A DNA stretch of 44,002 nt from a virus: IMG/VR virus record IMGVR_UViG_3300025466_000069, positions 1-44,002 of that record, one strand, 5' to 3'. This document shows positions 6,692 through 44,002 of the stretch, one piece after another. The notes below the pieces were generated by a model, which did not search any database, was not told the DNA's origin, and saw only the letters and a program-made list of their open reading frames with translations. Position numbers and translations under genes: made by a program. Numbering within the stretch: position 1 is the first letter of the stretch; every line of letters begins with the position of its first letter.

Positions 6692-7041
6692 GTCACACTA
6701 CGAACACTTGCCATAAGTGTCCGTAGTGCATCTATGCGTGACTGGCAGATACGCAACTCTTCACGCTGTGCCATCAGCACGCCATCGGCGGTCAGGAACT
6801 TGAGGCGCTCTGCTTCGGTCTCAACTACGGCGGTGTCGTCGGCGAACGCTTCGGTCACACGACCCTCGCCTGCTCGGGCTAACAACCTAGCCTTGGCGAA
6901 CGCTACCTTAAACGCTGTCTCGGATTCAGCCTTGGCTTGGGCTGACTCTCGGATAGCACCCACAAGTCTGCGAAGGCTACGACCCTCTTCGACAAGGGCT
7001 TTCTCTATGTCGGTCTGATTGAGGATGTTGTCGTTAGTCAT
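6688..7041 (-). CDS. Helical coiled-coil early protein
   Basis: This 117-residue, almost entirely helical protein is rich in Ala, Arg and Glu, with heptad-like spacing (for example LRRLVGAIRESAQAKAESET and ELRICQSRIDALRTL). Similar short helical proteins accompany recombination genes in many actinophages, but a specific family cannot be named. It overlaps the WhiB gene by 4 bases and its end overlaps the promoter at 6663. Confidence 0.65.
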   Translation of the reverse strand: MTNDNILNQTDIEKALVEEGRSLRRLVGAIRESAQAKAESETAFKVAFAKARLLARAGEGRVTEAFADDTAVVETEAERLKFLTADGVLMAQREELRICQSRIDALRTLMASVRSVT

Positions 7042-7424
7042 TTTTTTGCCTGTCTCTCCCTGTATCGTGCTACTCGTATCTTAGCACTTTCGTTGTATGC
7101 GTCAACGCAAGGCTGACAAGTGATGTGTGCTGGGTCTTTACGGCGCTGTCGTCGATGCCACGCCCAGCCTCGTTCGGTTCCGTGTTCGGGTTCTTTGCGA
7201 GCAGGTGGCTCGTATCCAAGTGATACTGCAACAATACGGAGCTCCTGATAATCCAGTCCAGCCCATACACCCCACGCTTCTCGGTGTTCGAGAGCCCACT
7301 GTAAACAATCCTGCTTAATGGGGCAGGTTAAGCAGGATTGTTTTGCTTTTGCTACTGCGGAAATGCGGTCGTCGAAGAAGTCATCTGTCTTCCCCTTACA
7401 ATTCGCAAGTTCCCAATCGGTCAT
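7038..7424 (-). CDS. WhiB-family iron-sulfur transcription regulator
   Basis: This 128-residue protein has the four WhiB cysteines at residues 9, 31, 34 and 40 (CxxC then C five residues later) and the turn GVWAG at 52-56. WhiB/Wbl proteins bind a 4Fe-4S cluster, are found in actinobacteria and their phages, and usually act on the host sigma factor. Residues 75-120 form an extension with an HGTERG stretch and a CQPC knuckle. The gene is embedded between the HNH and coiled-coil genes with 4-base overlaps. It is the best evidence for an actinobacterial host. Confidence 0.93.
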   Translation of the reverse strand: MTDWELANCKGKTDDFFDDRISAVAKAKQSCLTCPIKQDCLQWALEHREAWGVWAGLDYQELRIVAVSLGYEPPARKEPEHGTERGWAWHRRQRRKDPAHITCQPCVDAYNESAKIRVARYRERQAKK

Positions 7425-9115: not shown

Positions 9116-9406
9116 TCATTCTCCTTTTACTTTTTTGATTTGAAACAAGCCGCCCCATTGGGGGTGGTTCAGCATAAGCATACGAGCATAGTATGCCTTG
9201 TAGTTATTGTTCAACTTGAACTCGCTAGATGGGTCGTGCGTGCTTAGGTAATAGTCCCAGCGCAACACTTCAAAAAGCATAGCGATGCTAATTCGCCTAC
9301 GTCCCCTATCCCACATCTGCGTGGCTAACTTTTCCAAAGCAAAGTAAACCGCAGGGTTAGCTTTGTGGAACTCCACGAACGCTTCTTTGAATGATTTCTT
9401 GCTCAT
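9116..9406 (-). CDS. Conserved phage protein with FKLNNNYxxYYAR motif
   Basis: This 96-residue helical protein contains EFKLNNNYKAYYARMLMLNH and then GGLFQIKK. That signature belongs to a family widespread in phages and prophages, often next to recombination or replication genes. The helical layout and basic patch RGRRRIS suggest DNA binding, but no activity is proven for the family. It overlaps the replication gene by 4 bases. Confidence 0.75.
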   Translation of the reverse strand: MSKKSFKEAFVEFHKANPAVYFALEKLATQMWDRGRRRISIAMLFEVLRWDYYLSTHDPSSEFKLNNNYKAYYARMLMLNHPQWGGLFQIKKVKGE

Positions 9407-9939
9407 TTCTTTCCTTTCAATGCTGCTTTCAGGTCGATGGTCTTGGGCTTAGCCACAGACTCGGCACGACGTTGTTGATACTCTTCCTCATCGAATTCGG
9501 TGAGGACGTAGCCATAGGGAACCGATACCGGTGTGGTATCAGCCTGTTTCTTCTCGTCACGCTCACGCTGGGCAAGCATTGTGTCGAAGTGCTTGCGTAG
9601 TTTTTCGGGTGAAAGGATGACCGAGTGCCAAAAGTCGTGCGACTGTGACCATTCAATCATACTTAGCACCTCGTCATAACTACGCTTATCGAGGCGAAGC
9701 AACTTCTCGATGCACCCGATAGAGGTCAGGTTCACCCGAGACGGCTTGCGCTTGTTCTCGGAGATGCGCTTGTTCATTTCTTCAAGCAAAGTCCGAGCAT
9801 CTTTCCAAGACTGAGTGTTGTATTTGTCCTCAGTGGTTGTGAGCTTTACCTTGTCGACGGCTTGCTTAGCCTGTTCGTAGGTAATAACCCCATCTTCAAT
9901 TAGTAAGCAGAGTGCTTTCCTAAAATCAACTACTTCCAT
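9403..9939 (-). CDS. Phage replication protein, helicase-loader or DnaD-like
   Basis: This 178-residue protein has a helical middle region ending LLRLDKRSYDEVLSMIEWSQ followed by DFWHSVILSPEKLRKHFD. That run is typical of the C-terminal part of phage replisome organisers and DnaD-like proteins, which bind the origin or recruit a helicase. No ATPase motif is present. The N-terminal domain of longer family members seems absent or diverged. It is the only replication-initiation candidate found, and it lies with ssb and nuclease genes. Confidence 0.65.
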   Translation of the reverse strand: MEVVDFRKALCLLIEDGVITYEQAKQAVDKVKLTTTEDKYNTQSWKDARTLLEEMNKRISENKRKPSRVNLTSIGCIEKLLRLDKRSYDEVLSMIEWSQSHDFWHSVILSPEKLRKHFDTMLAQRERDEKKQADTTPVSVPYGYVLTEFDEEEYQQRRAESVAKPKTIDLKAALKGKK

Positions 9940-25503: not shown

Positions 25504-26580
25504 TTAAGCCAGTGGGCTTCCGGTTTCACCGAGGTCAACTGCAGGGTTCACGCTGATAGCAGGTGAACCGTAGGTTGCGGTGATGTCTGAGCCAAGCAAC
25601 GAAGCGGTCTCAAGGCGAGCAACTGACTGCTGACGGAAGATTCCGTAAGCACCAAGCCAGTACCAACCCAGAGGTACGAGACGACGCAGGCGGTCGGTGA
25701 TTGGACCGGGGACCAAGTGCGGGTAAGCACCGTTTCCGTCAATCATCGAGTGAGTCTTAGCAAGCGACTGGCGACCAACAATGATGGTACCGTAGACGTT
25801 TGTTGAAGACGCACCAGCGCCAGCGAATACAGGAGCACGAGGGGTTTCAATCCAACGTACGCCTTCGAATGCGCCGAGCTCACCGGTCCAGATTTCACCC
25901 GGCTGAGCGTAGACGTGTGGTGCACGCCATCCCTGAATGTTGGAACCAGAGACAGTTTCGCCCTGAAGGTCCGCAACGAGGTCGGGGTGGATGTAACCAA
26001 CGTAGTACCCACCGAAGGTAGGAACGTTCTGAGCACGCAGACGAGCACGGATGGCACGGATGTCCAAAGCGGAAATCGTGTTGGTTCCGGCTACAGCCGA
26101 ACGAGTGGTAACGGAGCTGTTGAGTGACGTTGCGCCAAGACCCGAACCGTAGTAAACCTGTGAACCTGAGTCCAAAGCCTTACGGGCAATCGTGTCAAGT
26201 GAAACACCAGCGTTGTAACCAACGACGTTAGCAACAACAGGGTCAACGTCGATGAACGAGGTTCCACGCAGCTTGGCGGTGGTACCTACTGAAGCACCGT
26301 ATTCCTGAAGGGTCAGGACTACCTGTGAATCAGTCATCGACTGAAGAGCCACGTCGGTTGTTTCGTCGGTTAGAGCCGTTGAAGCAATTGGCAAGTCGTT
26401 AACAATGGTAAAGGTTACAGAAGAACCCGGCATCGCCTGAGCGGTGGCCTGAACGTCTGCAGCTTGGTCGAAGTACAACTCAGGACGCAAGGCAAAGTAA
26501 GCCATGCGGTCATAAGCAGCCTGCGAGGTGTTGAAGTTGGTACTGAGGCCGGTGCCGGTACCTACATATGAGTCAGTCAT
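25504..26580 (-). CDS. Major capsid protein (N4-gp56-like)
   Basis: This 358-residue protein lies directly after the scaffold gene. It contains MPGSSVTFTIVNDLP, then LTDETTDVALQSMTDSQVVL and TLQEYGASVGTTAKLRG, the order of strands seen in N4-gp56-type HK97-fold capsid proteins. Later segments include a helix with RARLRAQNVPTFGGYYVGYI. No N-terminal delta domain is obvious, consistent with a separate scaffold. The ribosome site (AAGGAG) sits inside a 12-bp hairpin upstream of the start. Confidence 0.8.
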   Translation of the reverse strand: MTDSYVGTGTGLSTNFNTSQAAYDRMAYFALRPELYFDQAADVQATAQAMPGSSVTFTIVNDLPIASTALTDETTDVALQSMTDSQVVLTLQEYGASVGTTAKLRGTSFIDVDPVVANVVGYNAGVSLDTIARKALDSGSQVYYGSGLGATSLNSSVTTRSAVAGTNTISALDIRAIRARLRAQNVPTFGGYYVGYIHPDLVADLQGETVSGSNIQGWRAPHVYAQPGEIWTGELGAFEGVRWIETPRAPVFAGAGASSTNVYGTIIVGRQSLAKTHSMIDGNGAYPHLVPGPITDRLRRLVPLGWYWLGAYGIFRQQSVARLETASLLGSDITATYGSPAISVNPAVDLGETGSPLA

Positions 26581-29244: not shown

Positions 29245-32200
29245 TTAGAGTGTTGGGAATTTCATTAGAACTGACGTAATAAAGTATTGTTGATTAGCAA
29301 ATTGAGGCATTGCGGCAATTGCCGTGCATTCGTTGTACCAAGCATCACGAGCCGCATAGTAATCCGAGTTGTCGCCACCGGCTTTGTACGCAGCCATTGC
29401 TTTAGCACGCTCTTCGTACAGCCCCATAAGCAGGATAAACTTTTCCTTATCCGCTTCAGAGATGATTCCCTTTGATGCTGGGCTGGACAACATTTCAGGC
29501 ATTTGATTATAGACTTGGTAAGCGGTTGACTGCTTGCCAATGCTATTAAACGGACCGTCAGTTTGGAACCAGATTGGGTTGTCCATTTTGCCGTACATGT
29601 GTGCCAAATCTTGCAAGCGCCTTAAACCAGCACTGGTCAATTTTTGCGTCATTTTTCCGTCTGCGCCAGTCATGTCGTAAGCGTATTCTGGATTTGACAT
29701 AACCATTGGCTTAATGAAGTTATAGTAAACGTCGTTACCCAAAGCAACACGAAGCGTGTTCAAATATTCTTTTGGAGCTTCGCGCTGACGCAATCTAAGC
29801 ATCATCTCAAGTTGGTAGGCTTGTGGCGAATACTTTGATTGACGGCTAATTAACATTGCTGATGCATAGCCAAATTGTTTTACAAAATCTGGGTGGTTTT
29901 CTAACAACCCTACAGCTTGAACTACTTCTGGGAAGTTGCCCTGCGTTGACTGCGTGTGAGAACTTAAGTCAAGAATGTGAGTAGGATATCTGTTGGCGAA
30001 TTCAGTCATTGCCTCCATGTAAGTAGGGTATTTAAGGTTGCCCTTGCTGTCCCGTTCCGTGGTAATTGCGTCATACCCTGATTGCTTTGAAAACTCGGCG
30101 TTCAAACTTAGAGCAAGAGGCGAGAAGAAGTTAAATACGGTTTTAACTAGCAACATCTGTTCGGCAACGGCTTTGGAAGTTTCCAAAAGATTTGTGTACC
30201 ATTCAGGGTCCATACTCATTTTCTGACTAATAGCCATTGCGGTTATACCGTTAAGGTACATCGCCTTGTCTTTTTCGCTAACGCCAGTCCAGTCAACTTC
30301 TTTTTCGAGTTCAGCTCGTTGAATTGCCATAGCGTTGTCAAGAGCGTTGTTCATTACCTCGTTTGTAATTGAAGCAACGGTTCCGTTTTCAAGACCCATG
30401 TGACCAGCCAAAACTTGGTACATACCAGTAACGAAACTGTTAGGCATAACGTCGGTTGCAATAGAAGAGTTGTAGGCAACTTTGCCAAGAAACTCTGTCA
30501 TTGCTTTGTTGTACAAAGCAGACTGCCCAAGACCAAAGTAGTCTCGAAGCACCTTGACTGGGATAGAAACAAGTGGCCCCCAAGCAGGTCGAGTCATTTC
30601 ACCCAATACACCCGCTACGCCAGCCTCAGAGCCGGTAGGAACCATGGAACTAACTGAACCTGTACTACCCGTCAAACCAAACAACAGGTTAGAGAATCCC
30701 ATAGCCGTTGGTGCACCAGTAAAAGGGGTGTTACCAATTTTTCCAATAAACTCACTACCCGGTATAAGAATACCGGGAATTGCGCCACTGTTTTGCTGAG
30801 TTCCAATGTAGTCAGTTACGGCCAAGCAAAGTTTCATGTACTTTTCAAACGCCGCTGGGTCATCGCCGAGCAGACGGAATGCACGGCGCCACGCTTGGTT
30901 CTTGGCAAAGTAGAACGGTGCGAGTACACGCATGTTCTCTTCAAAAACCGTCTTGTCTTTTGGATTGTGAACGAACTTCATCATGTTGACAGCGGCTCGT
31001 GATTCAGCAATTACTTCAGCTTGGAAGTCGTGAATAACTTTGTTGTCTACAAGGTGACGCAGAATCTCCATTTGCTTGTGATACTCAAGAACAAACAACG
31101 GGTCACGGACCATGTAGTTAATAATTGGTCCAAGAACTTTGTCGTGTCCGTAGTCGGATACTCGCTGGATTAATTGCTTCCATGAGCCCTTGCCTAGCCA
31201 GTCAGCATCACGAAAGCCTTGACCCGGCAAGTTACCCGGGGCTGAGTTACCCATTCTGCGTACAACTTCGGCTTGGTCAAAACCTGATTTAATGTCACCG
31301 CTAACCGCTTGGTCAATCAAATCATCGTGAAGAACCCATTGGCCCTTTGCACGTCCTGCAAATGTGTGAAATACGGCAAGTGCGGCTCGTTTGGCGTTGT
31401 CTTCTAATGCAGCATCTTTAAACCGTTCGGAGTTAGTTTTAGTTTCGCCGGGCTTCATAAAGAATGGGCCTTCGGTTCGCATGTTGTCACGGTCTGCTTG
31501 TGTCCATGCAGAAAGAGATACTTCTTCAAACACGCCATCAAGAGTCTTCAAACGAGACAATTCTTCTTTTGGAAGACTTTGGTAAGCTTTTTTGGCAGTG
31601 GGTATTAATTCTTCAATAATGGAATTTTTCCATTCGTTTGAACCATATACGCCTTCAAATTCATGGTCTGCGCTTAACAGGTCGTGTAAACGTTGTGCAA
31701 TTGGCAAGTAAACGGGACCGTGATTAATACGAGTTAAGTTTTCACTTAGTACGTTTCCGTAACCACCTAAACCGTCGGCGCGGTTGTGACGACCAAAAAA
31801 TTCAGTACGAAATACTTTTTGTTTAATTTCTTTTCCGCTGGGAGAAATAACGGTGGTTTGCTCTGGAACTCCGCCTGTGTGATTGTAGGGGTCAAATACC
31901 AAATCGTCACCACTGTGAACAGAACCGGGATGGGTGCTTTCAGGGTGGCGCAAAAGCAACGACGTTGTGTTTTCTACAAGGCGTTCGCGTTCTCCCGAAG
32001 GCATTGCATCAAGAATGCTCTTTTCAATACCCATAATGGCACCAGCGGTAATGTCGCGGGTAATTTGCCATGAGTGGCGAAGAAGGTTAGTCGTGCCCAA
32101 TTTCCATGTAGAAGAATTGAACATTTGTTTTGTGTCTTTGGTAAGCGTTTTAAGGATTGTCTGTGTTAAATCAGCGGAGTCTTTAACAACGTTCTTGCTT

Positions 32201-35200
32201 GTTCGCGTAGCGCCTTCGACCAAGAAACTACCACCATGAACAAACTCGTGCTTAACCAACGAACGGGCTACGGCCGAATCAAAGAAATTAAATCCACCGG
32301 TGCGGAATGTGTTAAGAGCCGTTTCTGACACTCCAACGTGAAATGCCCACTTACCCGACAGCAGCGCAAGTGGCACAAAAACAAGGCTTAAAGTTTTGTT
32401 TAAATTATCTACCGTGTATTGAAAACCACTGCGCAAACCAGTTCGACTGTTGCGAGCATCGTTTAAAAGGTTCATGTAACGTTGACGTTGTGCTTCAGTG
32501 CTAACATCGCCGGGGCGAGCAGAGTTAGCTTTACGCTCTGCCCATTCACGCACTTGTGCATTTTTCATTGCTTCGGTGCTGTCAAAACCCATGTGCATAC
32601 TTGCAAGGTAATCATGCAAAACGTACAAACGAGCAAGGTTGTTTACATGCCATTCCAAATCTGGAGCAGGCTGTAATGGACGATTAAGCAAACTTACTGC
32701 ATCGGGGTTTGCTTCAATTAAAGCGTGTTCGTCAAGAATTGATTTTTCTTCGTCTACTTTTTTAAGAATAGTTTCATATTCTCTTTGTAAATAATCGTAA
32801 GCGGCTACTGCAGCGTCTTCTTTGTTCATTGTAAGATGAAAGCTTTTTAAAGTCATGTCAACAAGGTTTTGTTCGTAAACATACTTGCTACCAAACATGT
32901 TTCCGCTTTTTTTACCATAACCTAATTCGGTTACAATTGCGGATTTGGCGTCAACGTTGCGACGAATAGCGCCGATAATTCGAGAGTGTCGTCGAACGGT
33001 TAAAAGGCTTAGGTCCCGTGCGCCTGCAAGATTGCGAACTTGTTCTTCAGTAAGGCGTTCCCCAAAGTAATCGTGTGAAAATGGGGTTATTTCAATCATG
33101 ATGTCACGGATGGCGTCAGCAATGTTATTTAGGTCGCGCGCGCGAGGAAGGTTTAATACGTTTAAATGCGTTGGGTCTGCACCCGCATTAAACGTTTTTC
33201 CCGCAATGTCGGACATTGTTTCAAAGTTTGTGCTACCGCTTGATGGGCTGCTTGGGAGATAGGAGGTGTTTTTGCTTCCACCGTCAAAACCACTAATGCG
33301 GTTTACTTCGTCCCAAATGTGGTCTTCAATTTGTTTTGAAATAGAACCAAGTTCTGCTTCTTTTAAACCCGATACTGTTCGACGCATAATAATGTGGTGC
33401 AAGCATTGACGGTAAGCATTGGTAAATGCTTCTGCATCTGGAGCGTTCATCAAGAAATCGCCCATTGCGCTTACAACAGCCTCAGGCATCATCGCATTGC
33501 GAGCCATGTCCATAATGGCTGGGATAGAACCAATGTCACCCGGAATAATTTTGTCTGTTTCCATTTGCTTAGAAAGCTCGCTCCAGTACATAGGGTTACG
33601 AGTTAACTGCCTGTAGCACCAGTTACGGAAAGTAGAGCGAATTCGTAATGATGGGTCGTTTTCGGCTTGGTAAATAGACGAGTCGTTTTTAATCTTGTAA
33701 TCCGATGCCATTGCGTCGGCAACACTGTCAATCCATTTGTAGTCAGATGCAAGCACATCGCTAATATTTTTGGCAGGGTTTCCACCATCTTCCAAAATAC
33801 GAATTGCCCTATCGCGAATAGCTGCTTTGGCCCACGAGTACATTCCCAACGTAGGGGCTTTGGCATTTAGCAACCCAAAACCATCAGCCAAATCTTTGTG
33901 AATTTGAACAACTTCTTCACGCGTTGTCGCTGCACCTAGTTTACGCAACGTGTCAACGCCGTAAGTATTGCGAAACCTGTCGGCAATTTCTGCAGCATTG
34001 TGCAGGGCCATAAATTCGTATGAGTTCGAAACACCCAATGCATATTGCGTTAATTCAATGTCATCTGCGGAATGAACGCCAAGGCCGCGGAAAAAAATCT
34101 CTAAATTTCCAATAACACGCCCGGGCTTTGAAAAAATACGAATAGCAGCAGAACTAATTTTTCGATTTTCGTTGCTAAGCATGATAGCTCGGCTAGCGCG
34201 ACTATCGAGATTTTCGTTAAGTGAGCGAAGAGCGCCAGCCAAACGAGGCGAAAGTCCCTCTGCGCTGTGAGCAAGCTTCCAAACCTTACCAACGGCCCCT
34301 AGCGGGTCGGTGCCAAGGTATTTGGTGTATAGGTCCATAATGCCTGAACCCATGTCGTAGAACAAAGAACCCTTGTTAAGACCAAGCCATTCCATGGTTT
34401 GCTGACCAAGGTCGGTAGCATGTCCGTTGGCGTCGTAAACCGTTCCGCCACGGGTTTTTTCCCACAAGTCAGGGTTTTCTATTTTGGCTGCTTCTTGATT
34501 AAGAATGTACATTGCGTTAAGGCGAACGTTTGAAACGCTTGACCCAAGCCCGCGAGCAATTCGATACATTGGGCCTATTGGATTAACGCGTTCAAATACG
34601 GCAGACGCGGTATTACGAAGAAGACTCTTGTCAGCAAATTCTTTTGCCATTGCTACGGTTTCATTTGGAACTTCTTCACTAGCAAATTTTGCGCGTGCAG
34701 CAATACGGTCTACAGCTTGTGTAATTTTTTCTAATTCAGCAGGGCTAACATTTCCGCCCGCTTCTTTGTATCCTTGAACAATTGCTTGGTCTGCTGCTTC
34801 AGCTTCTGCAGAAATATCTGCTCCGGCGCTTCCCAAATCTGCTGGTACAGTTACGTCAAGAGCCGCGCCTTCAGTAGCAATAAGAGCCAAAATGGTTGGA
34901 GTTAAATGGCCCATTGCGTAAGCTACGCCTTTTTGTTTTGCCAACGATTCGTAATAAGCAATAACGTGCGCCATAAGCATAAACCCATTGTCTTTGCTGA
35001 ATGGGTTAACTAAATTGGTTGTTGAGTTGGCCATGTTATTAATAGTGTTGTACAAATCTTTGTACCCATTTACACCTTTTAAACCCACAAGTTCTTCGCT
35101 GGATAATGCCGTGCGGTTAGTAACATTGTTTAAATATTCATTAATTGAAACTGTGCCATCCCAAGCGCCTTTATAAAGGCCCGTAAACATTTGGTCCGTT

Positions 35201-35640
35201 TTGTTTGGGTCAGCCCAAGCATTCCAATAATTGCTGGCAAGGTGACCTATGGTATGACCAACAGAATCAATGCTTGATGGTAAGCCTGTTACTTGGTTTG
35301 CTGTGTAACTCCACGCTTTGTGAAGACCGTTAACAATGCCGCCCCAAAATGAACCGGCAACTCCACCGCTATTCATCTTGGCATAAATACCTTTGGTTGC
35401 GTTGTCGTAAAGGCTTAAATATTTAAGTGCTTGTGTTGCGTTTTGAGGGTTAATGCGATTATTAGTAGCAAAAGCGTGAACAAGTGAAGGGTCTTTAAAA
35501 GCAGCGGGGTTGTCTTTGTACAAAACGTGCAGGTTCTTTTGTACCTGTGATGGCTCGTTAACAAATGCGTTTGCAGCTTCAACTTGAGGAATATTAACGC
35601 CAGCACGGCCTACTGGTTGAAACGTAGTGTTATCAGCCAT
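29245..35640 (-). CDS. Giant internal or ejection virion protein, 2131 residues
   Basis: This is the largest gene in the window, 6.4 kb without interruption. The product is mainly helical with few Cys. Hydrophobic segments lie near residues 245-265 (PTILALIATEGAALDV) and about 1085-1105 (LSLVFVPLALLSGKWAFHVG). A region near 1560-1600 has ENMRVLAPFYFAKNQAWRRA, like stretches in large podovirus inner-core proteins. It does not carry polymerase motifs that could be recognised, so an N4-type virion RNA polymerase is not supported. The likely role is in genome delivery through the cell envelope. Confidence 0.7.
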   Translation of the reverse strand: MADNTTFQPVGRAGVNIPQVEAANAFVNEPSQVQKNLHVLYKDNPAAFKDPSLVHAFATNNRINPQNATQALKYLSLYDNATKGIYAKMNSGGVAGSFWGGIVNGLHKAWSYTANQVTGLPSSIDSVGHTIGHLASNYWNAWADPNKTDQMFTGLYKGAWDGTVSINEYLNNVTNRTALSSEELVGLKGVNGYKDLYNTINNMANSTTNLVNPFSKDNGFMLMAHVIAYYESLAKQKGVAYAMGHLTPTILALIATEGAALDVTVPADLGSAGADISAEAEAADQAIVQGYKEAGGNVSPAELEKITQAVDRIAARAKFASEEVPNETVAMAKEFADKSLLRNTASAVFERVNPIGPMYRIARGLGSSVSNVRLNAMYILNQEAAKIENPDLWEKTRGGTVYDANGHATDLGQQTMEWLGLNKGSLFYDMGSGIMDLYTKYLGTDPLGAVGKVWKLAHSAEGLSPRLAGALRSLNENLDSRASRAIMLSNENRKISSAAIRIFSKPGRVIGNLEIFFRGLGVHSADDIELTQYALGVSNSYEFMALHNAAEIADRFRNTYGVDTLRKLGAATTREEVVQIHKDLADGFGLLNAKAPTLGMYSWAKAAIRDRAIRILEDGGNPAKNISDVLASDYKWIDSVADAMASDYKIKNDSSIYQAENDPSLRIRSTFRNWCYRQLTRNPMYWSELSKQMETDKIIPGDIGSIPAIMDMARNAMMPEAVVSAMGDFLMNAPDAEAFTNAYRQCLHHIIMRRTVSGLKEAELGSISKQIEDHIWDEVNRISGFDGGSKNTSYLPSSPSSGSTNFETMSDIAGKTFNAGADPTHLNVLNLPRARDLNNIADAIRDIMIEITPFSHDYFGERLTEEQVRNLAGARDLSLLTVRRHSRIIGAIRRNVDAKSAIVTELGYGKKSGNMFGSKYVYEQNLVDMTLKSFHLTMNKEDAAVAAYDYLQREYETILKKVDEEKSILDEHALIEANPDAVSLLNRPLQPAPDLEWHVNNLARLYVLHDYLASMHMGFDSTEAMKNAQVREWAERKANSARPGDVSTEAQRQRYMNLLNDARNSRTGLRSGFQYTVDNLNKTLSLVFVPLALLSGKWAFHVGVSETALNTFRTGGFNFFDSAVARSLVKHEFVHGGSFLVEGATRTSKNVVKDSADLTQTILKTLTKDTKQMFNSSTWKLGTTNLLRHSWQITRDITAGAIMGIEKSILDAMPSGERERLVENTTSLLLRHPESTHPGSVHSGDDLVFDPYNHTGGVPEQTTVISPSGKEIKQKVFRTEFFGRHNRADGLGGYGNVLSENLTRINHGPVYLPIAQRLHDLLSADHEFEGVYGSNEWKNSIIEELIPTAKKAYQSLPKEELSRLKTLDGVFEEVSLSAWTQADRDNMRTEGPFFMKPGETKTNSERFKDAALEDNAKRAALAVFHTFAGRAKGQWVLHDDLIDQAVSGDIKSGFDQAEVVRRMGNSAPGNLPGQGFRDADWLGKGSWKQLIQRVSDYGHDKVLGPIINYMVRDPLFVLEYHKQMEILRHLVDNKVIHDFQAEVIAESRAAVNMMKFVHNPKDKTVFEENMRVLAPFYFAKNQAWRRAFRLLGDDPAAFEKYMKLCLAVTDYIGTQQNSGAIPGILIPGSEFIGKIGNTPFTGAPTAMGFSNLLFGLTGSTGSVSSMVPTGSEAGVAGVLGEMTRPAWGPLVSIPVKVLRDYFGLGQSALYNKAMTEFLGKVAYNSSIATDVMPNSFVTGMYQVLAGHMGLENGTVASITNEVMNNALDNAMAIQRAELEKEVDWTGVSEKDKAMYLNGITAMAISQKMSMDPEWYTNLLETSKAVAEQMLLVKTVFNFFSPLALSLNAEFSKQSGYDAITTERDSKGNLKYPTYMEAMTEFANRYPTHILDLSSHTQSTQGNFPEVVQAVGLLENHPDFVKQFGYASAMLISRQSKYSPQAYQLEMMLRLRQREAPKEYLNTLRVALGNDVYYNFIKPMVMSNPEYAYDMTGADGKMTQKLTSAGLRRLQDLAHMYGKMDNPIWFQTDGPFNSIGKQSTAYQVYNQMPEMLSSPASKGIISEADKEKFILLMGLYEERAKAMAAYKAGGDNSDYYAARDAWYNECTAIAAMPQFANQQYFITSVLMKFPTL

Positions 35641-36065: not shown

Positions 36066-38000
36066 TTATGCTCCCATTCCCGCTGGCATACTTGCAGGCA
36101 TTCCTTGTGGCATTCCCTGTGGCATTCCACCGGGTGCGCCGCCTTGGCCGCCTAGTTGACTTAAGATTGATTGTAAATCTGGTTGACCTTGTGGTGCAAG
36201 TTGCTGTCCACCCATCATTGGGTTCTCAGGACCAACGCCCATACCGGGTTGCATTTCGGGTGATGGCGCCATTGGCTCTTGACCCGGCTGTGCAGGTTGC
36301 TGCATCTGTTGTGCTTGCTGAGCCTTGGCTGCTTGTTCCTGTTGCATCTCTTCGTGAATCTTAGCAACTGCTTCTTCAAGAGTTACATGTCGTTCAGCCT
36401 TAGCCTTAGCAATGCGAGCAATTGTTGATGGGTCAAGTGAACCCTGTGATGCTTGCTGCTCAAGTCCGGTTAGAAGTGCTTTGCGCAATCCTTCTATTTC
36501 GACAAGGTCAGCTTCGCGAGCCGGGTCTTCAATCGTTGGGTCCATGACTCGCGCCGTTTCGTTGGACATAAGGCCCATTCCAACACGCTGACCAATAGAT
36601 ACCACCATAGAGTCGATATCACTGCCCGGCATAGGGTATTTAACATACGAAAAGGACGTGTCAAAAGTTTCATTGGGGACGTAGTCTCCCTTGTCGGTTA
36701 CAGTACCCTCGCCACTCATGACGAACATACTTGGCTTACTACCGTAGTATGCCTTCATAATCTTAACAGCTCGCATGTTTTCAAGTTCCATTGAGTTTTC
36801 AAAAATCTCTTGGTACTCTTGAAGCGGCATGTCAACGGCAGAAGACAGAACACTGGCACCACGACGAGCGGTGCGAATGTTGCTACCCGACTCCCCACCA
36901 AACTCAGCGGGAATACCAGCGGTCAGACGCTGGCTACGCTCAAGACGGTCAAGGGCCATAGCGGCATCCTGAGTCTGCTGTGGGTGGATAATCTGAATCT
37001 GTCCGTGGTCCAATACACCTCGAATACCCATCTTACCATCGGCCTCTTGGATAACACGGGGTGACGATGGGGAGTTACCGGCTGGTACAACCCACTCGTC
37101 GGGGAACACACCACGGAACACGGCAATGGTGTTCAACGCATCGAGCTTAGCCTCACGCAGGTACATACCCAGCATCTGGTCAAACTGACCCTGCAAGCGG
37201 TCAAGGGTAATACGTCCGGCAATAATAACTGGGCATACCTCGGCACGGTTTGGAATACGCTCAAGGATGACGTGAGCAGCAAGGCCACGTCCGCTCTCGG
37301 TTCCAAATGGGTTTGACTTGGGACGCTCTGCACCAACAGCAACAAGAACAGTCTCGGCGCCGTCAATGTATTCGAGAATTTCAAACATGTCCATTGGGCC
37401 TTTGTCGCCACGATACAACACGTTCATCTGTGCTGGGTAGTGGTCACGCAGCCATCCAAGAGGACGACGGTCGGAGAAGATACAGTCGATTGGCTCCATG
37501 TTGTCAGGGTCAATCATTGGCGATGGGAATGTCGACAATGGGTTGCGTACACGCCAGTGTGGGATGCGACGCTTGTCGTTAGGGTCAAGTGATACAGGAG
37601 AAAGAGATACGGCGCTCATACCATACGCAGTAAGGTGACGGGCACGGCGACGAATCTTTGTCTTCATCTTGTTCATCTCCCACCAACCCTTGTTGGCAAG
37701 GCGACGGTCGTGTGCACGGTTGTCGTGGAGTTGAATACCCGGGCGTAGTGATGGGTATTGAATGTCGGGCATAGTTGACGCAACACGCATAGCGAATTGG
37801 TCAATACCTTGTGCCAGCAGGTTAGGGATTGCGGGCTTCTCTAGTTCGTCAAGCTCAGGCAATGGAATAAGAACATCGCCGTTGTAGTGGTTACGGATTT
37901 CCTGCATACGCTGGAACATACCGCTACGCTGCATGCGACGGTCTTGGTACATTGAAACGATTTGGCCAGAAGCCTTGTCGTTATCTGGGGAGAGTGACAT
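36066..38000 (-). CDS. Portal protein
   Basis: This 644-residue protein directly follows the terminase gene. Landmarks are an N-terminal helix, the SLSPVSLDPND and FPSPMIDPDNM segments, a long helix with QAGD-like composition near VAKIHEEMQQEQ and a Gln/Pro/Met/Gly-rich C-terminus (about 540-644). The layout and length fit podovirus and siphovirus portals. It forms the dodecameric ring through which DNA is packaged and expelled. The low-complexity C-terminus has many MPQGMP-type repeats. Confidence 0.85.
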   Translation of the reverse strand: MSLSPDNDKASGQIVSMYQDRRMQRSGMFQRMQEIRNHYNGDVLIPLPELDELEKPAIPNLLAQGIDQFAMRVASTMPDIQYPSLRPGIQLHDNRAHDRRLANKGWWEMNKMKTKIRRRARHLTAYGMSAVSLSPVSLDPNDKRRIPHWRVRNPLSTFPSPMIDPDNMEPIDCIFSDRRPLGWLRDHYPAQMNVLYRGDKGPMDMFEILEYIDGAETVLVAVGAERPKSNPFGTESGRGLAAHVILERIPNRAEVCPVIIAGRITLDRLQGQFDQMLGMYLREAKLDALNTIAVFRGVFPDEWVVPAGNSPSSPRVIQEADGKMGIRGVLDHGQIQIIHPQQTQDAAMALDRLERSQRLTAGIPAEFGGESGSNIRTARRGASVLSSAVDMPLQEYQEIFENSMELENMRAVKIMKAYYGSKPSMFVMSGEGTVTDKGDYVPNETFDTSFSYVKYPMPGSDIDSMVVSIGQRVGMGLMSNETARVMDPTIEDPAREADLVEIEGLRKALLTGLEQQASQGSLDPSTIARIAKAKAERHVTLEEAVAKIHEEMQQEQAAKAQQAQQMQQPAQPGQEPMAPSPEMQPGMGVGPENPMMGGQQLAPQGQPDLQSILSQLGGQGGAPGGMPQGMPQGMPASMPAGMGA

Positions 38001-38003
38001 TCA

Positions 38004-39914
38004 TTACCTCAAGGGGTTTAAGTTTGCTTGCTTGACCCAGTTGGGGCGCCAAGAGCGAACAGCGATAGATTTAGGTATGTGGATATTAGGGATGTTCCAT
38101 TCAAAAAACCATTCGGCCATTACGCAGTCATCCGTACGTCCGTGCGGGTAGCGGGTAACCTCGTCGATGAGTTTCATCGCTCGAACCTTACCCTCACCTT
38201 TACCCATCAATCTTACCCTACCAAATCGCCAATGTTGAGAAATGGTCGTAACACCGTAATTGGGGTCTGCTTTATTGGTGTTGGTTGAGTGAGGGATTAC
38301 TTCCACTCCGCGAAGCTGTCGCCAGCGTTTAAAGTGTTCATATTGCAACATAAACCGCTGAGCGGCGTTTTGCTCAATAATCCAAGTCTGGATTGGAAAA
38401 CCTACACTTTCAGACAAGTGTTGCCAGTCTTCCATAATTCCGGTGTAGCGCCCTTCGTTGTAATTGTATTCAAGGAACTCTGGCGCTTCCATCTTCTGAC
38501 GGATGTGGTCAACTAAGAATCGTTGCTCCGACTCTGGGTGGTAGACCCAGCACTGAATTGACCAATACTGCGTCGGTGAAGGGTCGGCGGTAGCCACCAC
38601 AAGACAATCGCTGGGGTTGAGTCCAGCTGGAAGTTGCCAGCGGTCTCGGTCGTGGTCGATGCACCCGGGGGAGTCACCGTGACCGTACACCCACTCATTA
38701 CGCACAAGAACCTCGTCAAGCGCCAAGTCTTGCTGCTGATAAACAACGGCAAACCTTTCTCCGCGGTTGGACATGAGATTAGATACTTCTCGCCAAGGAA
38801 GCCTGCGAGGGTCAAGGAGGCACCCTTCCGGATAAGCAGGTGCAGATTTTTTATGCGTATGGTCGGGTTCACATTTTTCCTCGTAGTGTGCTTTGTACAA
38901 CAAGTGTTTGTACTTTTTGTTTTTGCGAAGGCTCTCTATTTCTTCTTCGGAAAGTTCGTCTTCCTCATCATCAAACGGCTGAATCATGTCCAGCGCAAAT
39001 CGATACAGGTCATCCGGCGCAAGCCTCTGACCAATCAACGCAAGCATGCCTGCAGGTTCTAGGCGGGTCTCCGCGACATCTTGGTACCAGTCTTCCATCG
39101 CCTCGCGCTGCTCCGCCGAACGAACCTTGCGAGGGTCAACAAGGTCGTCCCAAAAGCAGCCATCAAAACGGCCACCAATAAAACCAGAGTCCATACCATA
39201 AGCCGATAAGGTTGGCTCTTTTTCAGAGATTGCCCCAGCTTCTTCAGGCTGTTGTACAATGAATGCTTCTTTGGTCCAGAGTTCTTTTTCAAGTGGTTTA
39301 AATCTTCCAAAATCTAGGGCTAGGGTTGATTCAGCATCAACCGCTTGGCCACGGGCTTTAAGCATGTCATCCGCTACTTCGGGGATAACACGTTCGAGTG
39401 AACGACGCACACGCATTAAGTTGCGTTGCGCTAGGGACATAGTCGCCGAACCGGTCAACAAACGGACCGAACGGTTGCGACAAATAATCCAACAAGTAAT
39501 GTCGTGGAGCAGGGTGGTCTTACCGGAACCCGGTGGCATGTTCATAACCACATATTCTTTGTCCGGGGACTCTAGGAGCTCGACCAGCGCCTCTCCTGCT
39601 TCTTCCTGCCACGGGGTTGAGATGCGACCAAAATACCGGCGCCGGAAATAAGCAAAATCTTCTAGGGCCAACTTAGCCTCATCCGAAAGGTCGTCGTACT
39701 TCTTCGGACCTTCCAATTTGTTTTGTGCTTTAGCCTCGCGATAATCACGGGCAGAACTGTCTAAGCCCTCATCAGCGGTCAAAGCCTTAGCTGCCTTCTC
39801 TATACGATAAGCAGTCGCCTCCGAGATACGGGCCTTTTGTGCGCTCTGGGCAATAGAGAAACCTGCGCCTCTAGCCTCAAAATATTTCTTTCGTTGAGAT
39901 TGGTTAATCGCCAT
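38004..39914 (-). CDS. Terminase large subunit
   Basis: This 636-residue protein carries an N-terminal helix-turn-helix-like segment (SIAQSAQKARISEATAYRIE), then Walker A MPPGSGKTT near residues 127-134 and Walker B-like CFWDD at 253-257. The C-terminal nuclease region has the first acidic residue in VVATADPSPTQYWS and a late HGRTDD run. The HTH suggests that small-subunit DNA recognition is fused here, and no separate small terminase was found. The ATG overlaps the upstream stop. Confidence 0.92.
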   Translation of the reverse strand: MAINQSQRKKYFEARGAGFSIAQSAQKARISEATAYRIEKAAKALTADEGLDSSARDYREAKAQNKLEGPKKYDDLSDEAKLALEDFAYFRRRYFGRISTPWQEEAGEALVELLESPDKEYVVMNMPPGSGKTTLLHDITCWIICRNRSVRLLTGSATMSLAQRNLMRVRRSLERVIPEVADDMLKARGQAVDAESTLALDFGRFKPLEKELWTKEAFIVQQPEEAGAISEKEPTLSAYGMDSGFIGGRFDGCFWDDLVDPRKVRSAEQREAMEDWYQDVAETRLEPAGMLALIGQRLAPDDLYRFALDMIQPFDDEEDELSEEEIESLRKNKKYKHLLYKAHYEEKCEPDHTHKKSAPAYPEGCLLDPRRLPWREVSNLMSNRGERFAVVYQQQDLALDEVLVRNEWVYGHGDSPGCIDHDRDRWQLPAGLNPSDCLVVATADPSPTQYWSIQCWVYHPESEQRFLVDHIRQKMEAPEFLEYNYNEGRYTGIMEDWQHLSESVGFPIQTWIIEQNAAQRFMLQYEHFKRWRQLRGVEVIPHSTNTNKADPNYGVTTISQHWRFGRVRLMGKGEGKVRAMKLIDEVTRYPHGRTDDCVMAEWFFEWNIPNIHIPKSIAVRSWRPNWVKQANLNPLR

Positions 39915-40165
39915 TAACTGTTAAGTGCTTCGCTTAGCAAGCCCCTAATTCTGTAAGCAGATACTTCTCTATCACCAATAGTAAAGATGCCACCGAGGCC
40001 GTCCTTGTAGTCACGAACTGCAACTACAAGGACGTAATCCTCAACGGCGGGCATTTCCCAAGGAGCGTCTGAACCGAGCTCCCGATTAATTCTTTCGAGA
40101 AACAGAGGAATGTTTTTTTCAATCCACATTCCGAGCGATTGCTCAATCTGTTCCCCGTGTTGCAT
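39914..40165 (-). CDS. Small protein upstream of terminase
   Basis: This 83-residue protein has a helical N-terminus (EQSLGMWIEKNIPLFLERIN) and then strands (EDYVLVVAVRDYKDG). It lies between the holin-like gene and terminase and is coupled on both sides by one-base overlaps. A small-terminase function is possible by position, but no sequence sign of DNA binding is clear. Confidence 0.6.
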   Translation of the reverse strand: MQHGEQIEQSLGMWIEKNIPLFLERINRELGSDAPWEMPAVEDYVLVVAVRDYKDGLGGIFTIGDREVSAYRIRGLLSEALNS

Positions 40166-40777: not shown

Positions 40778-40947
40778 TCCCATTCCTCGGCGTCAAATAG
40801 GAATTCCTCAATGTCGGCAATTTTTTCCCATGGGATAGTGACGCTTAAGGGTGCGGTGTTGAAGTTTTGGCCGAGGGAGGTGATAACCAGCCCGTCGGTA
40901 TTTGCCGTGACTTTAAGCCGCGGGTTTTCGAGGATGTCAATGTCCAT
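40774..40947 (-). CDS. Small acidic protein, 57 residues
   Basis: The frame begins MDIDILENPRLKVTANTDGL, has strands (LVITSL, APLSVTIPW) and ends in an acidic helix (EKIADIEEFLFDAEEWE). The mix suggests a small beta-alpha domain. It is translated from the promoter at 41072-41100 through an attenuator-like hairpin. Function is unknown. Confidence 0.6.
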   Translation of the reverse strand: MDIDILENPRLKVTANTDGLVITSLGQNFNTAPLSVTIPWEKIADIEEFLFDAEEWE

Positions 40948-40966
40948 GCCTTAAGCATAGCACAAA

Positions 40967-40991
40967 GCCCCTTGGCAGGGAACCAAGGGGC
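40967..40991 (-). terminator. Attenuator-like hairpin, 9 bp
   Basis: GCCCCTTGG (40967-40975) pairs with CCAAGGGGC (40983-40991) around a 7-base loop. On the minus strand TTTGTGCTATGC follows. It lies in the leader between the promoter at 41072 and the gene at 40947, the same arrangement as before the virion operon. Confidence 0.7.
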
Positions 40992-41050
40992 CAATGCTCT
41001 AAGTTTCAAGCGGTTGAGGCACACAGATGTGTTTTCGGGTTTTGTCCCTA

Positions 41051-41100
41051 GTACCAACTTGGTACACACACACTATACACGCTATGAAATATCAAGTCAA
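41051..41100 (-). promoter_or_regulatory. Sigma70-type promoter with palindromic operator candidate
   Basis: TTGACT (41095-41100) and TATAGT (41072-41077) are 17 bp apart on the minus strand. Just downstream, covering the expected start, is the perfect 15-base palindrome GTACCAACTTGGTAC (41051-41065). A repressor or activator site is likely. The promoter overlaps the end of the 42-residue Cys-rich gene. Confidence 0.85.
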
Positions 41101-41225
41101 GCTTTTTTGGACTTTTTCTTTTTGATTTCGACTATGCGTTTAATGGCGTATTTTTGATTAGCGTCAGCAACGGTCTTTTCGCCGTGCTTGTTTTTGGGTT
41201 GGCCGCAGCCACAGGTTGAGCACAT
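41097..41225 (-). CDS. MCSTCGCG-type actinophage microprotein
   Basis: This 42-residue frame begins MCSTCGCGQPKNKHGEKTVA and ends in a Lys-rich tail. The CxxCxC start followed by PKxxHG is a recurrent actinobacterial and actinophage microprotein pattern and may bind zinc. It is the first minus-strand gene next to the divergent plus-strand promoter at 41288. Function is unknown. Confidence 0.65.
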   Translation of the reverse strand: MCSTCGCGQPKNKHGEKTVADANQKYAIKRIVEIKKKKSKKA

Positions 41226-41287
41226 GTCCCCATGATACCACACCCTTTATTCGTGAATTAATTCACATAGTGGTTACGATGCATGGG

Positions 41288-41315
41288 TTGATTTTAGGCA
41301 TCAATGGTGTATAGT
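41288..41315 (+). promoter_or_regulatory. Sigma70-type promoter facing the structured region
   Basis: TTGATT (41288-41293) and TATAGT (41310-41315) are 16 bp apart on the plus strand. The start would be near 41322, exactly at the first hairpin of the gene-free 1.4 kb. This supports transcription of a long RNA. Confidence 0.7.
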
Positions 41316-41829
41316 GGGTACAGCACCGTTGGCAGTGCTCGTGCGTGAAAGTCGCCCCGGAGTGTGAGTCATGTAAATACTCGCCGGAGTTCCCCGGTTA
41401 GAGCGGGATTGGGTCGGCCACGCGCCTACAACTTAGCTTTGTGGGTGAATCGTTCAATGAATCAACTTCAGCATCGGACAAGCCTCGTGGCCATAACGGG
41501 TGGATTGTTACTTACGTTTTTTGTAGGGTTGGTGAAGTGGGGGATGTTGTAACTAAGTCGTTGTGGTTGACAGGTCGTGATAGTGCTTTTGAGAGGAAAA
41601 CACACGAGTACGGTTAGCCACTCCTAACTTCAGTTTTTACGCCGTCCTAGCTCACTCTGGAGAGAATGACAGTTTTCTGTAACTGGGATACACATTACTA
41701 TTTGAGGCACCCGCCTCGGCACACTCCCAGTCAGAGACTGGAGGATGCCGGTCGTTCGCCTCAACGCGGCCCACACCCCCGCACCCCACCCAAGATAACT
41801 GACATACCATTCGGTATGCCCACTTATCA

Positions 41830-41930
41830 GCAGGCTTCGACCTGTTTTGAGAGGGAATGAGAGCAAAGCAACAGGGGAACCTGACAGATGGGCTTTGCCT
41901 CTATTCAACCCTCTCAAACCAGAAGCCTGC
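41830..41930 (+). ncRNA. Long multi-helix hairpin with GGAA loop
   Basis: Nested helices are 41830-41838/41922-41930 (9 bp), 41846-41855/41909-41918 (10 bp), a helix of AGAGCAAAGC with GCTTTGCCTCT (one bulge) and the tip CAGG-GGAA-CCTG. GGAA is a GNRA-type loop. Bases 1-46 of the window repeat the 3' half, so a second copy continues outside the window. Confidence 0.75.
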
Positions 41931-42599
41931 CAACAGCCAGCCAACCTGCCACCGGCAGGTCGCTACCTGTTGCGCTTGCAGCGTGCTTCTCAATCGCCGT
42001 ACGGCTAGGTGGCTTACGTCTCCTGTTCACTCGCCCCAAGTCCCACGGCTGTCCAGCCCACCTTTGGTGGTCAGTGCCGCACCCCAGTCCCTACGCCCAG
42101 CGTGTGTCCGCACAAATCTCTCGATACCAATCCGTAGACTGCTCATTATTTTTTCCTTTCCGTGTGCCACCTGAGAGGTTGTAGACGCAGTCAGCAAGCG
42201 ATTGCGGTCACCGTGTGACCCCCCACAGGGCGTGCGTGAAATCGCGTAGTCGCGAATTTCGGTTCCAATGGGCAATGGCGGCGTTTGAATTAAACAAAGA
42301 AACCACACTGTTCATCGGTCAGATTTTAGAAGCACAAACCACACCCAAAGCCCGTTGGCGCCTCGCTCGAACCACCCTCCGTTTGGTAAGTTCACCCATA
42401 CGCTCATTGGCAAATGTGGGATTGGCCAACCACTCGTAGCGGTTCAGAACTGCGAGTTCTTAACCATTTGGCTCGTGGAGTTTTGGGCACCCAAGGCCGT
42501 CAGGCGCTGGCCCTAATCTCTCCGTCAATTCCGCCGTGCGCCTGCTATTCAGCACACTAGTCGAAACACCGCTCCGCTTTGGTTGAGGTAGCAGGGCTG

Positions 42600-42655
42600 A
42601 TTAAGAACAGGGGCCCCTGCAGCTTGCTGATGCAAGCCGCCACCCCATTACAAAC
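42600..42655 (+). repeat. Nested-hairpin element, copy C
   Basis: TTAAGAACAGGGGCCCCTGC starts the element and CACCCCATTA ends it. The outer GGGG/CCCC stem pairs 42610-42613 with 42643-42646, and the inner GCTTGC-TGAT-GCAAGC helix is at 42622-42637. Same layout as copies A and B, with a third inner-stem sequence. The zinc-ribbon gene at 42741 follows. Confidence 0.6.
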
Positions 42656-42740
42656 ACAGCCGGGAACCTGCTACCACACCAATATTCCGACTGGCCGTGT
42701 GCTGGCAGTCACACAACGTGAATTGCCTTAAGGAGAGATT

Positions 42741-43001
42741 ATGACCAGCTTTGAACCTGACGACCTCGCGCGCGACTCAAAACTCACGCCGAGCCAAATG
42801 ATTGAAGAACTCATCATGCAGTTCTTCCCTACAGCCACGGTGGTTGAGACCCAATCCGGCACATTGTGCACAATTTGCGAATGGGAGGAACTTACAATCA
42901 ACGGAGAATGGTTCCCCGGCGAGGACGACTCAACGGACTATTTTGTGTGCGGCTTCTGCTTCGCTAAAATCTGCCCCGAAGATGAACAGGTGGATTTCTA
43001 A
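42741..43001 (+). CDS. Zinc-ribbon microprotein with FFPTA motif, paralog of 637-927
   Basis: This 86-residue protein has QFFPTATVVE near residue 27, then CTIC, WFPGEDD and CGFC, in the same order as the protein at 637-927. The two genes are paralogs placed after copies of the same nested-hairpin element. AAGGAG precedes the start with 6-base spacing. The product is acidic and would bind one zinc. Function is unknown. Confidence 0.8.
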   Translation: MTSFEPDDLARDSKLTPSQMIEELIMQFFPTATVVETQSGTLCTICEWEELTINGEWFPGEDDSTDYFVCGFCFAKICPEDEQVDF

Positions 43002-43171
43002 TGTTTGAATTCAAAAACGCCTCCATTAAGCCTCATTGGAACTACGAAATATTCTGCGACTACTGCGACGATTTCTACGCACCCCAAATGTGGGAAGTCT
43101 ACTACGTTGACGGGGAATGCGCAATCGCTTGCCCAGACTGCGTCTACAACCTCATCACAACAGCACACTAA
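43001..43171 (+). CDS. 56-residue zinc-ribbon microprotein
   Basis: The frame begins MFEFKNASIKPHWNYEIF, then has CDYC and, 24 residues later, CPDC. This is one zinc ribbon. The ATG overlaps the upstream stop (TAATG). It occupies the same operon place as other CxxC microproteins in the first cluster. Function is unknown. Confidence 0.7.
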   Translation: MFEFKNASIKPHWNYEIFCDYCDDFYAPQMWEVYYVDGECAIACPDCVYNLITTAH

Positions 43172-43188
43172 TTAGAAAGGAGAAAATA

Positions 43189-43287
43189 ATGAGCAGATAT
43201 TACTACGGATTTACTCGTCGAGAGATTCGCGCTATGCGCCGCACACGCATTGGTCGTTTGTGGTTCTGGATTTGGTACGGCAACTAG
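43189..43287 (+). CDS. 32-residue basic aromatic microprotein
   Basis: The frame reads MSRYYYGFTRREIRAMRRTR followed by IGRLWFWIWYGN. The product is very basic with an aromatic end, and could contact membranes or nucleic acid. AAAGGAG precedes it with 7-base spacing, a strong ribosome site, and a terminator follows 16 bases after the stop. This makes translation likely despite the size. Confidence 0.6.
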   Translation: MSRYYYGFTRREIRAMRRTRIGRLWFWIWYGN

Positions 43288-43303
43288 CCCTACCGACCCT
43301 AAA

Positions 43304-43335
43304 GGGTCACAGTCTCCAGCCGTGGCCCTTTTTTG
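43304..43335 (+). terminator. Intrinsic terminator
   Basis: GGGTCAC (43304-43310) pairs with GTGGCCC (43322-43328, one G-U), followed by a run of T at 43329-43334. It ends the short plus-strand operon 42741-43287. Confidence 0.75.
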
Positions 43336-43590
43336 TTGCTCGTTCACCTCCAACACGCATAAACGACTCGCCTTCGGCTCACCTAACTGCATACGCTCAC
43401 TATCGTTCGCTATGTACGTTCGTTAACACTCACTTGCTACGCTCACATTCGTTCGCTACCTCGCTTCGCTCAAACAAACGCTCGTGCTACGCACTCGCTG
43501 GCACCGCTCGCATTCGCTCGCTCACACCCTCAAACGCCGGGCGGCTTATACAAGCTCGCTTCGCTCGCACACGCTCGTTAACACTCGCTG

Positions 43591-43615
43591 GTCCTCAGGC
43601 CGGACAGGCCGCAAA
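43591..43615. repeat. 25-bp direct repeat (second copy 43688-43712)
   Basis: The block GTCCTCAGGCCGGACAGGCC plus GCAAA occurs twice, 97 bases apart. It contains a GTCC/GGAC inverted repeat and resembles 232-251 near the left end. Confidence 0.85.
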
Positions 43616-43903
43616 CTCACTTCGTTCGTACTCTCGCCTTCGGCTCGCATAACCTCGCTTCGCTCGATACGCTCACTTCGCTCGCTAGTCCTCAGGCCGG
43701 ACAGGCCGCAAATTCGCCTTCGGCTCATACAAACAGCCAGCCAACCTGCTACCAGCAGGTCGTCTAACTGTTACGCCTGCAGCGAGCTATGGGGAGAGCC
43801 CCAAACCCCCTTATGTTGGGAGAGCCCAAACCCCCTAACTGGGACTTTGTCCCAGACCCTAGCCCTCGGGCCGGGCGGCCATACGTTCACTCACCTCTCC
43901 CGG

Positions 43904-44002
43904 TGCTCAAGTAAATCAAGACCGCTCCAGCGCCACACTGCTATTTAACGCATTTGCAAGCAAATGCGCTCGCAGTGGGGACAAAAATCTTCAAATCATC
44001 CA
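43904..44002. repeat. 99-bp exact repeat of 1870-1968 at the window end
   Basis: All 99 last bases are identical to 1870-1968, including two nested hairpins. The match runs to the final base, which is what a contig that stops inside a repeat looks like. Confidence 0.95.

Follow-up and report, generated by a model that had tools for sequence, protein, structure and literature searches.

A probable structured RNA gene upstream of the terminase gene in uncultured lake phages

What fills the gene-poor stretch upstream of the terminase gene in a phage known from metagenomic sequence? The DNA analyzed here (the window) is an entire IMG/VR virus record of 44,002 bases (IMGVR_UViG_3300025466_000069). 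Its gene content is that of a tailed phage, with minus-strand genes for the large terminase (TerL; 38004–39914), the portal (36066–38000), and the major capsid protein (25504–26580), as well as a gene for an 83-aa protein (39914–40165). An earlier, sequence-only reading had proposed that positions 41321–42655 encode one promoter-driven, structured non-coding RNA of about 1.3 kb. The promoter and the structured RNA survive our analysis, but the length does not, as the conserved RNA covers about 0.43–0.64 kb. Positions 41322–41733, probably to ~41960, very probably form an independent, untranslated RNA gene with its own promoter and at least eight conserved helices, and not a leader.

The phage, its relatives and the limits of the RNA

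Against phage records, the terminase finds its best matches at ~28% identity over part of its length, mostly in Streptomyces phages, and on present records no close isolate of this phage is known. The host is likely an actinobacterium; a WhiB-like regulator gene (7038–7424) bears out the earlier suggestion of an actinophage. The proteins scanned include a recognizable ERF recombinase, SSB, and DnaD-like helicase loader (9403–9939), and no recognizable polymerase, primase, or replicative helicase. Elsewhere in the window, a single 2131-aa open reading frame (29245–35640, minus strand) occupies the structural region, and 43340–43730 consists of low-complexity, cgctcg/cttcgttcgc-like repeats. Two small cysteine-rich proteins (634–927 and 42741–43001) show a distant likeness to each other; no relatives of the second were found in IMG/VR or in the loci fetched for this work.

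A search with the terminase yielded 80 IMG/VR loci, in dozens of which 41301–41427 is conserved (about 75–93% at the nucleotide level) at the matching place. Nucleotide comparison also revealed conserved islands at 41445–41505 and 41658–41741. Two conserved DNA patterns were found in 51 and 48 IMG/VR stretches, mostly on shared contigs, and in all the core (41322–41733) is kept in about 45 distinct IMG/VR sequences, all from related phages. The carriers come from lake-type metagenomes, and their hosts are probably actinobacterial. Searched against 84,980 bacterial and archaeal genomes, the first pattern gave one match, apparently fortuitous, within a long open reading frame. No match came from DNA searches of annotated phage records.

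The downstream part of the 1.3-kb interval has a different origin. Positions 42061–42599 (plus strand) lie outside the RNA and are a degraded reverse-complement copy of 42657–43305, with 63 deletions, 12 insertions, and 43 mismatches, and an alignment score of 524, where shuffles reach no more than 143. For comparison, true relatives of the RNA gave balanced gaps (21:34 and 24:20) with the same aligner. The source segment holds genes at 42741–43001 and beyond, and its inverted copy explains why many stems and no gene had been seen in 42061–42599. A single RNA spanning all of 41321–42655 was rejected on these grounds. No comparable inverted copy was present in 20 relatives tested or in the window’s other version of the locus (1–1700). 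The copy is probably a fold-back long-read artefact, or alternatively a decayed inverted duplication. Fold-back reads are a documented artefact of long-read sequencing, and we did not find a deletion bias in such reads described in that source (PMC12870357). The abundance of deletions would fit an unpolished fold-back long read, a bias that we infer from the present copy.

Beyond the copy, a short hairpin element (42600–42650, plus strand), also outside the RNA, recurs at 445–501 and partly at 2082–2135; it reads AARGAACRGGG.CCCTGC... and stands ahead of variable-region genes. The ends of the contig repeat internal sequence as well: 1–104 is 93% identical to 41885–41987, 48–197 is 93% identical to 43732–43882, and 43889–44002 is 96% identical to 1855–1968. 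On the simplest reading of these repeats, the map is probably circular; the contig would have passed around it once and finished in another version of the variable region that follows the RNA.

Helices, promoter and 3′ block

We aligned the 5′ domain (41320–41430) from 39 distinct sequences (alignment A1), in which five helices are found. P1 (41322–41326/41335–41339), at the probable 5′ end of the RNA, has three double-changed pairs and 96% of its cells paired. P2 (41341–41356) closes a 7-nt loop, UGNAAGU, and its central pair is 100% paired, as C-G (20 distinct sequences) or G-C (19). P3 (41357–41360/41384–41387) is 100% paired with three covarying pairs, and its pair variants include G-U (25), C-G (12), and G-C (2). 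Its apical extension, P3a (41366–41371/41375–41382), is 91% paired with four covarying pairs; the terminal loop of this arm (41357–41387) varies in length. P4 (41393–41407) carries a second 7-nt loop, GUUAGAG, which is invariant in A1, and the outermost pair of its stem is 100% paired as C-G (21), G-U (16), or A-U (2). Thus one of the two loops is nearly and the other fully invariant. In the middle domain (41408–41500; alignment A3, 15 sequences), P5 (41416–41422/41486–41492) encloses P6 (41423–41427/41443–41447) and P7 (41452–41454/41477–41479). All of these helices lie on the plus strand.

Overall, 97.0% of the helix cells in A1 are paired, compared with 83.4% in shuffled alignments and 35–55% when the helices are slid along the alignment. 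Double-changed cells number 113, whereas shuffles give 38 and not one out of 500 reached 113; related sequences can show an excess over shuffles without any structure, but the slid controls preserve relatedness and score far lower. In A3, 95.1% of cells are paired, with 26 double-changed cells versus 5.4 in shuffles. Compensatory changes beyond both shuffled and slid controls are the general mark of a structured non-coding RNA. Judged from this comparative evidence, the covariation and the near-invariant loops, a function at the RNA level is close to certain for 41322–41492. The stem-loops noticed earlier are therefore genuine within this segment, where eight helices covary. Folding energy was dropped as a test, since it was uninformative: the z score is –0.75 for the core (41318–41745), –3.58 for 41318–41965, and –1.19 for 41966–42655.

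The promoter proposed upstream of the RNA (41288–41315, plus strand) consists of a –35 box, TTGATT (41288–41293), a 16-nt spacer, and a –10 box, TATAGT (41310–41315). In the window alone, such sites occur no more often than by chance (2 found versus 1.7 expected), but the –10 box is positionally conserved, which argues that the promoter is real. A TAnnnT box stands at a constant distance from P1 in nearly all of 45 relatives, usually or often with GTG before it, and TTGACA occupies the –35 position in loci L005, L025, and L075. This fixed distance places the start of the RNA at ~41320–41322. From the conserved promoter and the covariation together, the RNA is presumably transcribed from 41322. 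The view that no convincing gene lies here also held up, as the open reading frames within 41321–42655 are short and homologous segments vary from 109 to 152 nt in length, not by multiples of 3.

Downstream of P5, a variable middle (41501–41655, plus strand) contains pieces conserved across the aligned relatives, namely GGGTGGATTG and GTTGGTGA.GYGGGG, followed by GAYAGTGNTTTTGA. The 3′ block (41664–41733, plus strand) reads GAATGACAGTT ... GATAC ... CTCGGCACACTCCCAGTCA, with the last motif at 41715–41733. It is the most widely conserved piece of the locus and shows almost no covariation; its alignment (A2, 39 sequences) has a mean column identity of 70% and little support for pairing. A possible 3′ part follows on the same strand (41842–41960), also without covariation. 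It includes a stem (41842–41855/41909–41922), the motif AGGGG...AGATGGGCTT at about 41872–41894, and a GC-rich hairpin, ACCTGCC-ACC-GGCAGGT (41944–41960), that is a candidate transcription end. About half of the relatives have an AGGGA..GATGGGCTTA motif ~50–200 nt after the core, behind a spacer of variable length. We found no consensus pairing for this element among the relatives, and an extension of the RNA past 41733 on the strength of covariation was rejected. The core stops at 41733, and the 3′ end of the RNA probably lies between 41733 and 41960, which with the start at ~41322 gives the length of about 0.43–0.64 kb.

Genomic position and divergent lineages

In all 87 loci that have both features, the RNA lies upstream of the terminase gene and on the opposite strand, 886–3694 nt from its start (median 1146); these loci include some overlapping pieces of single contigs. 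Downstream, an amidoligase-like gene shares the strand of the RNA in 17 loci and runs against it in another 17. As the downstream genes point either way, the RNA appears to be a transcription unit of its own. No tRNA was found in the window or in 14 relatives. One contig (IMGVR_UViG_3300025400_000015, 64,966 bases; loci L021 and L022) contains both a second terminase gene and a second copy of the RNA, and is possibly a joined or concatemeric assembly. The idea that contig ends mark physical genome ends at the 3′ block was not supported by the locus coordinates, in which distances to the ends are spread out.

Models of the 5′ domain (R1) and of the 3′ block (R2) were then run on loci that had so far gone unmatched. 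R1 matched clearly in L059, L065, L067, and L076 and marginally in L061. R2 reached further, to L077–L084 (terminases 57–60% identical), L133 (~52%), and L141 (42%), so that the 3′ block persists upstream of terminases just 42–60% identical. In L141 it lies ~130 nt upstream of the terminase gene, and R1 has no match anywhere in that 47-kb record. Matches to the 3′ motif in L134, L138, and L140 were rejected because they fall inside open reading frames, with no R1 match or TerL relative in the fetched stretch. Upstream of the terminase in L084, L083, and L078 is a differently folded, gene-free stretch of ~550 nt that ends in the same 3′ block and is probably a divergent branch of the RNA.

The lineages with terminases 42–59% identical also have perfect DnaA boxes (TT[ATG]TCCACA) in the gap upstream of the terminase, 11 in 10.4 kb compared with 1 in 85 kb elsewhere, a density about 90 times higher. 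The boxes adjoin the promoter or come just after the 3′ block, and clusters of them flank the RNA locus in L079, L082, L084, and L133. No such enrichment is seen in the window’s own lineage, where the gap has 1 box in 22 kb and the sequence outside the gap has 10 in 251 kb.

More distantly, the Streptomyces phages of the Beephvirinae (L144–L150) are linked to these phages by a related capsid protein and, weakly, by the terminase. Direct terminal repeats and about 1.5 kb of gene-free sequence occupy the corresponding place; in phage Kumquat, the repeat is ~265 bp and the ~1.5-kb gap lies beside the terminase. The motif CGGCAGATTCCCGGTCA is present in three of the four Beephvirinae genomes examined, at one place in each and in the opposite orientation relative to the terminase. 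R2 reports no match at this motif, and an Rfam scan of the Streptomyces phages gave no relevant match. We take the motif as no more than a hint.

Comparison with known RNAs, possible roles and meaning

No Rfam 15 model matched the window or 16 relatives at the gathering score, and nothing of interest appeared at E ≤ 10 in 40900–42760 or in seven relatives; the models without a match include GOLLD, ROOL, OLE, HEARO, pRNA, group II, and RNase P. Membership in GOLLD, ROOL, or HEARO is thus not supported by the models themselves, and the likeness to GOLLD and ROOL noted earlier is one of style. GOLLD RNAs often lie near tRNA genes and form a closed 14-mer cage, and ROOL RNAs are often found near tRNA islands in phages or prophages. 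Many GOLLD RNAs exceed 800 nt, whereas the present RNA is shorter, has no tRNAs nearby, and keeps its fixed place beside the terminase. Like GOLLD, it is large, elaborately folded, phage-encoded, and known from lakes (GOLLD from other settings too), and its 5′ part varies more than its conserved 3′ part (PMC12286853). ROOL is similar in size, with one of 659 nt described (PMC12286853), and is likewise encoded by phages or prophages with no partner protein known; the present RNA differs in matching no ROOL model and lying in no tRNA island. The GGGUGNAAGUCCC hairpin and the GUUAGAG loop are, we assume, look-alikes of group II intron domain I and RNase P RNA. Either identity was rejected, given no Rfam match at E ≤ 10, no domain V by eye, and a setting that is not intron-like. 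We found no earlier description of the RNA in the PMC literature, from which most preprints and subscription papers are absent. Judged by Rfam 15 and that literature, the sequence family appears new, and the RNA probably represents a new class in phages that matches no known family, although its kind, the large structured phage RNA, is already known.

Our best explanation is that the product works as a folded RNA. The covarying helices would hold the invariant 7-nt loops and the conserved 3′ block, which shows no clear pairing, in place. This arrangement suggests a scaffold that associates with itself or with proteins in the lytic cycle, the mode of action proposed for GOLLD and ROOL RNAs. The fixed position of the RNA next to the terminase gene points to a possible role in the genome-end, packaging, or replication zone. 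We put the probability of this whole explanation, an independent structured RNA gene with a scaffold-type role near the packaging or replication zone, at about 55%. The scaffold-type mechanism, taken by itself against its rivals, is tentative, at a little under even odds. The 3′ block may act as a DNA element that is transcribed within the RNA, because it shows near-zero covariation and occurs without the 5′ domain in L141.

The DnaA-box clusters of the divergent lineages speak against this explanation and favor a replication origin, where the RNA would be a structured pre-primer or regulator like ColE1 RNA II. The 5′ domain would then control folding, and the 3′ block would be the point where RNA meets DNA and synthesis starts. 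Transcripts of the RNA II type prime DNA synthesis from their 3′ end, and the present RNA resembles RNA II in being promoter-driven, structured, and ~0.5 kb long with a functional 3′ end, and in having DnaA boxes nearby in some lineages. We found no sequence relation to RNA II, and the origin role is putative. It would suit a phage with a recognized SSB, recombinase, and loader but no recognized replication enzymes, and an RNA that is independent of the orientation of its flanking genes. However, the DnaA-box loci are few and related, the window’s own lineage lacks the enrichment, and the loader gene is far from the RNA, and helicase loader genes often carry the origin; we regard an origin RNA as rather unlikely. 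The constant opposite orientation and nearness to the terminase, retained by the 3′ block down to 42% TerL identity, would suit an RNA, or a DNA site in the 3′ block, that helps terminase start or end packaging, comparable to phi29 pRNA or to a transcribed concatemer junction. The phi29 pRNA, an essential, motor-binding component of packaging, is also a structured phage RNA encoded near packaging genes, and the terminal repeats, gap, and CGGCAGATTCCCGGTCA of the Beephvirinae point the same way. Yet that motif is reversed relative to the terminase and goes unreported by R2, the present RNA is far longer than pRNA and has no Rfam pRNA match, and its location is at best suggestive of a link to the motor. 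Several contigs of 40–45 kb also continue straight through the locus, which gives no sign of a fixed genome end at this place. A packaging role of this kind is quite unlikely.

Two further readings carry much less weight. The next genes of the window (from 42741, and from 634 in the other version) are on the strand of the RNA, as they would be behind a 5′ leader or riboregulator. A leader or riboswitch always lies upstream of, and co-directional with, the gene it regulates, but the even split in downstream orientation largely refutes this, and the window’s small downstream genes are not found in relatives; a leader is very improbable. That the region is a product of assembly or read errors with no biological meaning is probably true for 42061–42599, but does not hold for 41322–41733, where many independent assemblies show conservation together with compensatory changes.

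To our knowledge, just a handful of classes of large structured RNA have been described in bacteria and phages, and we know of no settled function for GOLLD or ROOL. It is possible, though we would not yet favor it, that the RNA described here represents a new class of large phage RNA, unrelated to GOLLD, ROOL, OLE, and pRNA, and plays a core part in the life cycle of a group of uncultured freshwater actinophages. If so, it might, for example, act next to the terminase gene to set up packaging or replication. An additional class, unrelated to the known ones, that combines strong covariation with a conserved promoter and a fixed position would offer a new handle on such RNAs, and its tie to the terminase region leads to predictions on packaging or replication that are specific and can be tested. 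Undescribed RNA machines would then still be present in lake phages that have no cultured relatives.
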